A DNA stretch of 64,000 nucleotides, taken from Pseudobdellovibrionaceae bacterium (GTDB taxonomy: Bacteria > Bdellovibrionota > Bdellovibrionia > Bdellovibrionales > Bdellovibrionaceae). Positions 24,594-28,965 of the stretch are shown piece by piece. The notes under the pieces are model-generated. The model was not told the DNA's origin, ran no database searches, and saw only the letters and a list, made by a program, of their open reading frames with translations. The first letter of the stretch is position 1, and the number at the start of each line of letters is the position of its first letter. Where the stretch lies: the NCBI GenBank assembly GCA_022843825.1, contig JALHMX010000001.1:62001-126000 (forward strand), given 5' to 3'. A program made the translations under genes and the position numbers.

Positions 24594-26087
24594 CTATCGT
24601 TTGTACAGTCGTAGTGCTTTATCCCGTTGTACTGAATGATGTACAATGGGACTTGGATAGCCAAATTTACTTCGGTCACCATCAGGGTCATGAAGGTCTT
24701 TGGCCGGAATATTTTTAAGCTCCTTTATGTATTTTTTGATGTAGATCCCGTCAGGATCAAATTTAATACTTTGTAGCCATGGATTAAAAATTCTAAAGTA
24801 AGGCTGAGGGTCACAGCCGGTCGATGCAGCCCACTGCCAGCCACCGTTATTGGGGGCTAAATCACCATCAAGCAGAGCTTTCATAAAATAATTTTCGCCC
24901 CATCGCCAATCAATTAATAAGTCTTTTGTTAAGAAGGAAGCAACGATCATCCGCACACGATTGTGCATCCAGCCGGTTTGCGCCAGCTCTCGCATTCCAG
25001 CATCCACAATTGGAAATCCCGTCGTTCCATTGATCCAGTGTTGAAAAAAATCTTCGTTATTTTCCCATGCAATGTTTTCATAATGTTCTAGAAAACTTTT
25101 CGTTTCTACCCGAGGACAGTGATAAAGTATTGAGTAATAAAATTCTCTCCAGGCTAACTCTTTGACAAAATGTGCTGGGCCAGATTTTTCTTTCCAGTCT
25201 ATTTTTTCTAAACCCAATGCAGATATAATTTGAGGAACCGTTAAGCTGCCGTTTTTTAAATAAATAGAAAATCTCGACGTAGCTTGGATCGACGGGTAGT
25301 TCCGTTGATCTTTGTAATTTAATAGTTTTGCTTTGAAGCCTTCAAGCATTTCGAAAGCTTTAAAAAATCCTGCTTCTGGCAGGGGTATCGTTACTTTTTT
25401 TTGATTTTTCAATTCAAAGTCTTCTAAAGAATCTTTAAATGGAAAACTGGATTTTTTAGTAAATGTTTTCCAGGTCATTTTAAAAAGATCTTGTCGGCGA
25501 TTTTTCTTTAAATAGTAGTCTCGGACGTTAGTCTGCGATTTAAGCCGTGCTTCTCCTACGGAGCCATTTAACTTATCAAACCACTTACGAGCGTATGGAG
25601 AGTAGACCTGATAGAAATCCCCGGGCTTTTCGCTTTTAAGAACCTCAGTGGGCTCGAATAACAGATGATCGCGGCAATTTAGGACTTCAATATTAAAATC
25701 CGCGAGAATTCTTTCAATTTGGATATCTCGTTGAATGGCATAAGGCTCGTAGTCACGATTCCAGGTTATCAAAGATGGACTTGTTAGGTGATTTTTAAAA
25801 AAATTCAAAAGTTGCGGAAAAGCTTGGCTAGGTTGACAGTCAATCACTAACAAATCCCCGCCTTGTTCCACCAAGTCTGATTTTAGTGCCTTTAATGTCT
25901 TAATAAAAAAACCAAATCGGTTATGTGAAAAGTCAGAACGAGACAAAAATGTCGAATCAAAACAAAAAATGCCTAATGTTCGTCCGCGATTGCGTTTCCA
26001 GTTTATTTTAAGACCTTCATTGCCAGGCACGCGAAGGTCTCTTCGAAACCAGTGTATACCCCATTCGGTTTCCGCGTTAGTTTTCAA
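24594..26087 (-). CDS. phrB: Deoxyribodipyrimidine photolyase (cryptochrome/photolyase family)
   Basis: 497 residues. It repairs UV-induced pyrimidine dimers using blue light. The N-terminal alpha/beta antenna domain begins with HWFRRDLRV (about 12-20). The C-terminal FAD domain shows [49 protein letters not shown] and [20 protein letters not shown], all class I photolyase signatures. Its start overlaps the end of folE by 11 bases. FolE makes pterin precursors, and a folate cofactor is the usual light antenna, so the pairing fits cofactor supply. Confidence 0.94.
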
Positions 26088-26646
26088 ATTGTTTCCATAA
26101 CCTTGCTTTTTCTGCTTCAGAAAGATTCTCGAGACCTAATGAAAACTCGGTCCGCGTCTTAGAGGATTGTTTTTCTACGCCTCTCATCATCATGCACAAG
26201 TGCTGGGCTTCGACGACGACAGCCACAGATCTGGGATTAACAAAGTTATATATAGACTCGGCTATTTCCTTAGTTAAGCGCTCTTGCACTTGTAATCTTT
26301 TAGAGTAGACATCAACAATACGAGCAAACTTTGATAGCCCTAAGATTTTATTTTGAGGCAAATATGCGATAGAGGCTTTTCCCCAGAATGGAAGCATATG
26401 ATGTTCGCAAAGACTGTAAAATTCAATGTCTTTTACGCACACTATGCCACTGGATTCACTTTCAAAAATTCCTTCACCCACAACAGACTGGATAGATTCG
26501 GCGTAGCCTGACATGAGGTACTGTATTGCTTTATAAAAGCGTTCTGGTGTGCGCAGTAAGCCTTCACGCGTAGGGTTCTCGCCGATTTCTAAAAAAATTC
26601 CACGCGCCAGGTTTGGAATAGAAGGAGAATTTGATAACTCTTTCAT
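26077..26646 (-). CDS. folE: GTP cyclohydrolase I
   Basis: 189 residues. It converts GTP to 7,8-dihydroneopterin triphosphate, the first step to folate and pterins. Zinc and catalytic residues are visible in [12 protein letters not shown] (about 78-89) and [12 protein letters not shown]-like C-terminal [11 protein letters not shown] (about 150-160), giving the Cys, His, Cys ligand set. [20 protein letters not shown] is complete. It lies directly upstream of the photolyase with overlap and is probably a second, light-stress copy, although whether the genome has another folE is not visible. Confidence 0.94.
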
Positions 26647-26695: not shown

Positions 26696-27127
26696 TCATT
26701 TTTTTACCTCACAGTAAGGGCTATCCTGGCATTCAGCCGAGTCAGCATATCTTGGTAGGAAGGGGCGCACTAAAGCAAAGCACGAATAACTCATTTCAAG
26801 GCCAGACTTAAATAGGCGATTTTTAGCTATTCTTGCAAGCCACTGGTATTTCGGAAGTATAGACCATATTTCGATAAAAGCATCTACCCGCGTAGCCACT
26901 GAGCCATCTTGTCGGCGCACATGCATGACTTTGTGAATTTGAGTCGGATCCAATTTTTCACTTGCAGCATTGAAACCTGAAGAAAAGATATCAATAAACT
27001 GAATACGGTTGGCGCCGCGCTGTTTTTTGTAATGATTAATTTCCTTACTGCAAACCTTGCATAGACCATCATAGTAAACTTTAAGAGCAGTTTTGTTGGA
27101 TTTTGTTTGATTACCCATATTGTTCAT
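26696..27127 (-). CDS. DCC family (DUF393) thiol-disulphide oxidoreductase-like protein
   Basis: About 143 residues. The N-terminal motif KVYYDGLCKVCSKEI gives the family's CxxC after a YDG turn, followed by FIDIFS and a basic RRQDGSVATRVDAF stretch, typical of the thioredoxin-fold DCC family. Activity is unproven. Two in-frame ATGs (27127 and 27118) lie inside the palindrome shared with the divergent GbsR-like gene; no Shine-Dalgarno is seen for either. It is 49 bases upstream of folE on the same strand and may be cotranscribed with folE and phrB. Confidence 0.82.
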   Translation of the reverse strand: MNNMGNQTKSNKTALKVYYDGLCKVCSKEINHYKKQRGANRIQFIDIFSSGFNAASEKLDPTQIHKVMHVRRQDGSVATRVDAFIEIWSILPKYQWLARIAKNRLFKSGLEMSYSCFALVRPFLPRYADSAECQDSPYCEVKK

Positions 27128-27145
27128 ATTAGTATGAACAATATG
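27116..27145. promoter_or_regulatory. Perfect 13-base palindrome containing both divergent start codons
   Basis: CATATTGTTCATA (27116-27128) and TATGAACAATATG (27133-27145) are perfect arms around TTAG. It is the right size for a MarR/GbsR dimer site and sits at the start of the regulator gene itself. Both reading frames begin within the arms, so each gene's first codons spell Met-Asn-Asn-Met. Binding here would block both genes. Confidence 0.75.
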
Positions 27146-27652
27146 CAAAGTAAAGCTAAAAAAAATAAGCCAGCCCAAAGTTTACAAAAGCTATCTCTAT
27201 CTATCGGAAATTTCATTCGTTATTGGGGTTTCCGACGAATCCACGGTGCAATATGGACGCAACTGTATCTTTCTAAAACACCGCTAAGTTGCACGGACTT
27301 AACAGCCAGACTGGGTCTTTCAAAGGCACTTATTAGCCCTGCCTTAGATGAGCTTCATCAGTATAAATTGATACTTGAAGCCCCGGCGCCAAATGAAAAA
27401 ACTAAAGTCTACCAAGCCGTTGAGGATATTAATCAAGTGATCAGACATATTTTAAAAACCCGTGAAGCCAAGATGCTTAAACAAATAACTGAGGACTTTT
27501 CTATCTTTAAGAAAAGCGATGAAACTAACAAAGAGATTAACAAGGCCCATTTGAAGTCTTTAGAAGAGATGATATTTTCTGCCAATTTAATGTTACAAAT
27601 TATGTTAGAACAGAAAGATCTAATGAAGTTGCCGCTCGAAATTGAATCATGA
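27134..27652 (+). CDS. GbsR/MarR-type transcriptional regulator
   Basis: About 172 residues. After a basic N terminus the family motif FIRYWGFRRIHGAIWTQLYL (about 23-42) leads into a winged helix with CTDLTARLGLSKALISPALD (about 50-69). A C-terminal coiled helix would dimerise. GbsR-like proteins are repressors that sense small molecules. It is divergent from the DCC gene and overlaps the downstream kinase gene by ATGA. Starts at 27134 or 27143 are possible. The palindrome at its start is the likely autoregulatory site. Confidence 0.88.
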   Translation: MNNMQSKAKKNKPAQSLQKLSLSIGNFIRYWGFRRIHGAIWTQLYLSKTPLSCTDLTARLGLSKALISPALDELHQYKLILEAPAPNEKTKVYQAVEDINQVIRHILKTREAKMLKQITEDFSIFKKSDETNKEINKAHLKSLEEMIFSANLMLQIMLEQKDLMKLPLEIES

Positions 27653-28965
27653 AGACATCATCTTTAGCTCGAACTTTTGAATTAGCAAAGCTTGCAGCCC
27701 AAGTTGGCTTTAAAGAATTGAAGTCAGGCGACTTAAATTCGCGATTAGAACAGGCCGCATTAATCGCTCAAAGTTTATCTCGTCTCAAGGGGGCCGCCAT
27801 GAAGGCAGGTCAACTTTTAAGTCTGGATTTGGATGATTACTTTCCACCGGAAGCCATTGAAATATTAAGTCACTTGCAAAATTCAGCGACCGCTCATCCT
27901 TTTGAGGAAATTGAGCAAATCATAAAAAATGAAATAGCTGCCCCACAAAGAAAGCTTATAAAGTCACTTTCACGCGAGCCCATCGGAGTTGCAAGCATTG
28001 GACAAGTTCACAAAGCACTTTATAAGGATCGCGAGATCGTACTAAAGGTACAATTTTCTGATGTCGCGGATTCCGTCGAGTCGGATTTAAAAATATTAAA
28101 AACTTTGGGCACTTCATTTTGTAAGCTCAGCGGACGCAAAATGAATTTAGATCCACTTTTTAAAGAGTTTAGAGCCATTTTAGAACAAGAGTTAGATTAC
28201 CAGGCCGAAGCTAAATTCCAGAATCAATTTTATAAAAAAATTAATAAACTTAATGAAGTATCTGATTGCAATTACCGCGTGCCAGAAACGATTCCAGAAC
28301 TGAGTGGTCAAAAAGTTTTAGCCATGAGTTTTGAATCAGGCCTAACTTTTCGAAACTGGTTAAAGACCAAGCCTGATGCTAGTTTAAAAAAACATATTGC
28401 TATCGCTATTTTAGATTTGTATTTTCATGAGTTTTTTGAGTGGGGCTTAGTTCAGACCGATCCTAATTGGGGAAATTTTTTAATTGAACAAAAAGGATCT
28501 GATTTGAGCATTTGCTTATTAGATTTTGGTGCTACTAAACGCTACAGTCGTGAATTTATTCAAAACTATATAACCTTATTAGATTATGCTGCTAAAAATA
28601 AGAGTGTTCCATTGCGAGAGCTATCTATTCAATTGGGTTTAATCGATTCGCGCGAGGCGAAATCGACCTTCATTGCTTTTGAAGAGATGCTAAAGACAGC
28701 CATTAAACCATTTTTTGTTGAAAAATCGGGTACACCGTATTTTGATTTTGCAGACCGAAATCATACATTGGAGTCACAAAAAGCTGTAAAAGCTTTATCG
28801 CAAGGCTTAGTCTACAGCGCCCCGCCATACTCAATCATCTTCCTCCATAGAAAACTAGCGGGCGTATACTCCATATTAAAAAGCCTAGAGGTTCAGCTTG
28901 ATATTTCGAATTACTGGCAAATGATGAAAGATCTTTCGAATATCCCAAATAAGCCTCGTGATTAA
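27649..28965 (+). CDS. ABC1/UbiB (AarF)-family protein kinase-like protein
   Basis: 438 residues. It shows the ABC1 signatures: KAGQLLSLD (about 47-55, the KxGQ motif), the Ala-rich loop VASIGQVHKALY (about 112-123), VLKVQ with the ATP-binding Lys, catalytic QTDPNWGNFL (about 268-277) and the metal-binding LLDFGATK (about 288-295). Family members support ubiquinone synthesis or membrane lipid homeostasis, often as ATPases. It is coupled to the GbsR-like gene by an ATGA overlap, which is unusual for the housekeeping ubiB and suggests a stress-specific paralogue. Confidence 0.9.
   Translation: MKTSSLARTFELAKLAAQVGFKELKSGDLNSRLEQAALIAQSLSRLKGAAMKAGQLLSLDLDDYFPPEAIEILSHLQNSATAHPFEEIEQIIKNEIAAPQRKLIKSLSREPIGVASIGQVHKALYKDREIVLKVQFSDVADSVESDLKILKTLGTSFCKLSGRKMNLDPLFKEFRAILEQELDYQAEAKFQNQFYKKINKLNEVSDCNYRVPETIPELSGQKVLAMSFESGLTFRNWLKTKPDASLKKHIAIAILDLYFHEFFEWGLVQTDPNWGNFLIEQKGSDLSICLLDFGATKRYSREFIQNYITLLDYAAKNKSVPLRELSIQLGLIDSREAKSTFIAFEEMLKTAIKPFFVEKSGTPYFDFADRNHTLESQKAVKALSQGLVYSAPPYSIIFLHRKLAGVYSILKSLEVQLDISNYWQMMKDLSNIPNKPRD

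Follow-up and report, generated by a model that had tools for sequence, protein, structure and literature searches.

The window analysed here is a 64,000-nt stretch of DNA from a Pseudobdellovibrionaceae bacterium, in which two divergent gene groups meet at positions 27116-27145. The plus strand carries the gene of a GbsR/Mj223-type regulator of the MarR superfamily (27143-27652; 169 aa when counted from the second of two in-frame ATGs), assigned by an AlphaFold model, Foldseek and a profile search, and its stop is overlapped by the gene of an ABC1/UbiB-type atypical kinase (27649-28965; Pfam PF03109). On the minus strand lie the genes of a DCC1-like thiol-disulfide oxidoreductase (26696-27118; 140 aa from the second ATG; PF04134) and, downstream of it, GTP cyclohydrolase I (FolE; 26077-26646; PF01227) and a DNA photolyase (24594-26087; PF00875 and PF03441), the start of the last overlapping folE. 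The photolyase also matches the NCBIfam 8-HDF photolyase family, with a score under that family's cut-off.

No Pfam family was found for the regulator. Its resemblance to Mj223 (1ku9), the template of the GbsR family, covers both sequence and fold, the similarity by which the GbsR/Mj223 subgroup is recognised: the profile search gives 1ku9 with E 7.9e-16, and Foldseek ranks it first for the AlphaFold model (E 2e-7, TM 0.59/0.66). The best NCBIfam match, the choline-responsive CudC equivalog, was rejected, as it reaches 19.3 bits against a cut-off of 218. The protein is a member of the broad GbsR/Mj223 subgroup, outside the CudC equivalog, and its neighbours (photolyase, FolE, DCC1, ABC1) include no osmolyte genes. 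Within 130 bases, no other start codon that keeps the conserved domain was found for the plus-strand ORF.

Positions 27116-27145 read CATATTGTTCATA-TTAG-TATGAACAATATG, an inverted repeat with perfect arms (13 of 13 bp) around a 4-bp spacer. This agrees with the earlier note on this DNA, which had also reported ATG-AAC-AAT-ATG on each strand and no Shine-Dalgarno (SD) sequence for either gene. Both observations are confirmed: the string is in frame with the ORF on each side (plus strand, 27134 or 27143 to 27652; minus strand, 27127 or 27118 to 26696), and no SD was found in the window upstream of either divergent ORF. By chance, about 0.01 palindromes as large as this one are expected in the window and about 0.5 in the 2.4-Mb genome. 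As judged from its conservation, this one is not a chance palindrome, since the dyad is kept in relatives.

The window contains no second copy at up to three mismatches (expected number of matches, 0), and the extended consensus finds this single site in the whole genome. Either the central TA or the arms are missing from other matches resembling GTTCAT-N6-ATGAAC in this genome; at low stringency, matches are only 1.5 to 2 times as frequent as in the control. From these searches, the regulator appears to serve only the site at 27116-27145.

A separate, dispersed 61-bp palindromic element was observed in G000. Its ends are constant (AAAAGGTGCCAGG...CCTGGCACCTTTT); its interior varies and, in some copies, is self-complementary throughout. 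Copies lie at G000:C1:206600, C3:38662, C3:106238, C3:116883 (L162, L170, L174) and elsewhere. Its end sequence occurs 24 times in the genome, many of them as inverted pairs 48 bp apart.

Relatives of the locus occur in metagenome assemblies named as Bdellovibrio and Bdellovibrionales. Orthologues of the regulator from further genera and families retain the dyad with the core GTTCAT-N6-ATGAAC, also at orthologous loci with DCC1. In the window the core occupies 27122-27139, and it is near-invariant in 42 compared sites. The strict site, as found by either search, is present in 26 of the 30 genomes with the regulator clade (a match of at least 179 bits) versus 1 of 111 genomes without it (Fisher test, 4e-23, relatives being counted as independent); two of the four regulator genomes lacking the strict site (G058, G087) have variant sites. 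The palindrome is absent from the examined upstream regions of distant GbsR paralogues (below about 172 bits). With one mismatch allowed, 38 of 141 genomes from the order have the extended motif, some of them by chance, while the tighter motif GTTCATRNTANYATGAAC occurs in 28 of 369 genomes from the phylum, compared with 1 of 369 for the reversed pattern used as a control. The co-occurrence of site and regulator makes it very likely that the palindrome is the operator of the neighbouring GbsR-like protein.

The site also precedes genes away from the regulator, namely DCC1/ABC1 pairs and genes for photolyase, photolyase-related proteins (PF03441, PF04244) and a lipocalin, and it stands before genes for OsmC-like proteins. 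From these placements, the palindrome is predicted to be the operator of a small regulon and not a coding curiosity. One site (L120) was dropped as a chance match, the regulator being absent from its genome. Outside the order, the exact operator motif was observed at G213:C73:3927 and G285:C171:1996 (possible transfer or chance). Shortened copies of the regulator with an operator-like palindrome kept, apparently decaying paralogues, were observed as L154/L056 and L087 (G032); G032 also has an intact regulator (L014/L147).

To describe promoters, 84 half-sites from the 42 sites were anchored on the dyad, 70 of these halves bearing a gene. On each strand the related sites show a TTGACA-like -35 element, exactly 17 bp, a -10 element (TANTAT), 7 bp and the second ATG. 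The first two bases of both -10 elements are the central TA of the palindrome's "spacer"; as the 42 sites were chosen with this TA required, it is not independent evidence in them, while searches not requiring it find TA in nearly all regulator-linked sites. The match to the -35 consensus peaks at the 17-bp spacer (mean 3.43 of 6, with TT[GT] in 76% of gene-bearing halves), and the mean is 0.8-2.0 at spacers of 13-16 and 18-25 bp, with the fixed core raising the values at 10-12 bp. Where no gene was recognised in a half, TT[GT] still stands at the -35 place in 71% of cases, and therefore the -35 signal is not tied to the presence of a gene.

The bases 22 and 23 bp from the dyad are A and A in 39 and 41 of the 42 sites, respectively, and positions 15-21 vary. 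This near-invariance is explained by the predicted -35 elements, which fall on codons 3-4 of the gene on the other side; among 26 class-A orthologues of the regulator, 23 have AAA or CAA as codon 4. The -35 elements are nearer to consensus if the opposite side does not code from the second ATG (3.86 vs 3.07 of 6; examples are TTGACC, TTGACA and TTGACT), and therefore the conservation is at the DNA and not at the protein level. In L092 the promoter reads TTGACA-N17-TACTAT.

For the window, the comparison predicts TTGATT-N17-TAGTAT for the regulator, with the -35 element at 27107-27112 of the plus strand (placed by the 17-bp spacer peak, in codons 3-4 of DCC1 as counted from the second ATG) and the -10 element at 27130-27135 (placed by the hexamer register of the sites). 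For DCC1 it predicts TTTACT-N17-TAATAT, with the -35 element at 27149-27154 of the minus strand, in regulator codons 3-4 (AGT AAA), and the -10 element at 27126-27131. The promoter call thus rests on relatives: the window hexamers match the consensus at 4/6 and 4/6, under the threshold of a simple sigma70 consensus scan, which finds no promoter in the region. Since the TA at 27130-27131 belongs to both -10 elements, the two are predicted to form a single bidirectional promoter with a shared operator. The canonical starts would be 23 bp apart (-7T at 27135 and 27126) and the ATGs are 25 bp apart; bidirectional promoters share -10 bases and have starts 7-25 bp apart, and the -10 elements and spacing predicted here agree with both features. 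The predicted promoter overlap, the TA at the dyad and the putative -35 elements inside the opposite coding sequence had escaped the earlier note.

The second ATG is the predicted start codon and the approximate transcription start on both sides, at 27143-27145 of the plus strand for the regulator and at 27116-27118 of the minus strand for DCC1. Among 28 regulator orthologues with the site, the second ATG is in frame in 26, and none has the first ATG in frame with the second lost. Orthologues L091, L092 and L102 read ATGAACTAAATG, with a stop codon TAA between the two ATGs, and L146 reads ATTAACTTTATG, in which the first ATG is lost and the second kept; a start at the first ATG is impossible in these four because of the stop or the loss. 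As all four keep the second ATG, the first ATG of ATGAACNATATG (27134-27136 on the plus strand, where the earlier note had placed the start, and 27125-27127 on the minus strand) is probably a dispensable part of the -10 element and operator. It is unusable also in many DCC1 orthologues, which start instead at an SD-led ATG at +13 to +15. The AAC-AAT between the ATGs is then probably untranslated operator or discriminator sequence, and the shared N-terminus MNNM is probably not real: the four shared first residues proposed for both proteins do occur in the drawn ORFs, but the proteins, which the comparison starts at the second ATG, probably lack them.

An SD-led alternative start accompanies none of the 37 second-ATG starts versus 21 of 33 other gene starts, in which the second ATG is lost or out of frame (Fisher test, 9e-10; here, as in all statistics of the comparison, related sites are treated as independent). 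In these 21, the SD-led ATG lies 13-48 nt downstream, and the SD often comes only a few bases into the predicted mRNA (for example, ATGGGAGGTCCACATG in L145). A transcription start at this place would predict just such an exchange, with either a start codon or an SD standing at the 5' end.

Of 173 genes without an SD in 464 kb of the window's genome (the window and L155-L174), 24 have TANNNT precisely 12 nt upstream of the ATG, against a background of about 2% and under 1% in genes with an SD; leaderless genes are likely common in this genome, and leaderless initiation may be so in its lineage. The -10 element of the window starts 13 nt before the second ATG and ends 7 nt before it, next to the genomic peaks at 12 and 6 nt, and there is no SD. 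The 1-nt offset from the peak makes a leader of 0-2 nt the honest range. Bacterial initiation prefers T at -1 and A at +1, and the pair at 27142/27143 favours the A of the second ATG as the start. From the position of the palindrome and the absence of an SD, both mRNAs are predicted to be leaderless or to carry a leader of 0-2 nt. The proposal that operator and initiation signal are combined is partly supported by the same two features, while its placement of the translation start at the first ATG is not. No paper on leaderless genes in Bdellovibrio was found in the literature searched, and a 5'-end map of B. bacteriovorus reports attack-phase promoters, mostly of FliA type, with leaderless mRNAs unmentioned.

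If the leaderless mRNAs began at the first ATG instead, both proteins would start with MNNM and the palindrome would be kept partly as coding sequence. The first ATG is indeed in frame in 33 of the 37 second-ATG starts, and the minus side of L126, a DCC1 orthologue without a clear SD, has the first ATG in frame and the second lost. However, no regulator orthologue shows that pattern, while the four with an unusable first ATG show the reverse; moreover, no conserved -10 element lies 12-13 bp upstream of the first ATG, and Asn, Tyr, His and Asp codons all occur after AAC, which makes such a start unlikely. It is also quite unlikely that the palindrome is only an operator, with promoters elsewhere and long leaders in which it would act as an RNA hairpin controlling translation. 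The strand does fold into a 13-bp hairpin (z = -3.6), and the covariation after AAC described below would fit an RNA stem, but DNA symmetry accounts for the pairing equally well. Such a hairpin would bury both ATGs without an SD; besides, the conserved -35/-10 register puts the 5' end near the second ATG on both strands, and in SD-led L145, L147, L100 and L140 the SD lies a few bases past the predicted start.

The outer arms pose a question of their own. Any of the four bases may follow AAC, yet the one present matches its partner in 74% of sites versus 31% in shuffled ones, and different sites within one genome carry different bases here. The arms reach 26 bp in L004/L095, and in L095 (G043, ~2758) the first codons of the regulator are mirrored on the non-regulator side, where all they encode is a stopped peptide of 11 residues. 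A mirrored copy of the regulator's first codons is also seen on the non-regulator side of L134 (~2989). The matching of the variable base and the mirrored codons of L095 suggest that template switching has corrected the quasi-palindrome, in addition to selection acting on the core. That the outer-arm symmetry arose in this way, unselected, with the start of one gene copied across, has in our estimate not quite an even chance and is compatible with the preferred explanation. On the other hand, the core and the TT of the -35 element are conserved even though they do not pair exactly, and this requires selection.

The best explanation, which we consider probable, is that the operator of a GbsR/Mj223-type regulator lies inside a symmetric bidirectional sigma70-type promoter with both mRNAs near-leaderless. 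RNA polymerase would read -35, 17 bp, -10 (TANTAT), 7 bp and ATG on each strand and, owing to the overlap of the -10 elements at the central TA, would be bound in one direction at a time. We infer that a regulator dimer on GTTCAT-N6-ATGAAC would cover both -10 elements and shut both operons together, one comprising the regulator and the ABC1 kinase (autoregulation), the other DCC1, folE and photolyase. On each strand, transcription would begin at the second ATG or no more than about 2 bases from it, the same bases thus fixing promoter, operator and start codon. A fuller version is offered more tentatively, as rather doubtful: one palindrome would serve as operator, both -10 elements and both leaderless starts, with the -35 elements in the opposite codons 3-4 and with arms matched by template switching, stamping N-terminal codons on the neighbour. 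The content of the regulon (photolyases, lipocalin, OsmC, DCC1, ABC1 kinase) suggests control by light or oxidative stress; as the gene content overlaps the light-induced LitR regulons of Pseudomonas, the favoured guess for the signal is light or oxidative damage.

If true, this would be an extreme overlap of genetic information: about 48 bp would hold the operator together with both promoters and both start codons, an arrangement kept across an order of predatory bacteria most of which are uncultured. The palindrome would serve as a natural test case for the repression of bidirectional promoters, and natural "mutants" with the second ATG lost and an SD gained would make leaderless initiation directly testable. 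The motif GTTCATRNTANYATGAAC would predict the regulon of an uncharacterised GbsR clade.

Each ingredient is already known (bidirectional promoters, GbsR repressors, divergent leaderless regulator genes); a partial literature search found no paper with all of them fused in one palindrome. Bidirectional promoters share -10 bases, are occupied by polymerase in a mutually exclusive manner and have starts 7-25 bp apart, with preferred spacings of 18, 10 and 23 bp (Warman, Grainger; PMC12825309, PMC10268837). The window resembles them, with predicted starts 23 bp (canonical) or 25 bp (ATGs) apart, and by our own derivation the 23-bp spacing makes -12T and -11A coincide as the central TA. Unlike the near-symmetry of a single -10 element seen there, the palindromy here extends to the operator, the start codons and partly the -35 elements, and leaderless starts are predicted.

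In the telomere phage PY54, the divergent cI and cro regulator genes have an operator between them and both mRNAs are experimentally leaderless (PMC4488713), but promoters and operator are separate, and no shared -10 element or start-codon palindrome is described. The LitR/CarH light regulons of Pseudomonas PplR/PmlR include photolyase, FolE and a cryptochrome-like protein (PMC9758184), and the window locus likewise has photolyase and FolE genes, although those regulators belong to the LitR/CarH family and the one here to GbsR, light control being a proposal. The regulator resembles GbsR/OpuAR repressors (PMC6207618, PMC7396694) in the Mj223 (1ku9) fold and profile, while its neighbours are unrelated to osmolytes. 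The operator defined for GbsR is, like the palindrome here, an AT-rich inverted repeat, its half-sites being separated by 4 bp (PMC7396694); it lies downstream of one start, and the OpcR operator lies on a -35 element, whereas the predicted operator of the window lies on two -10 elements.
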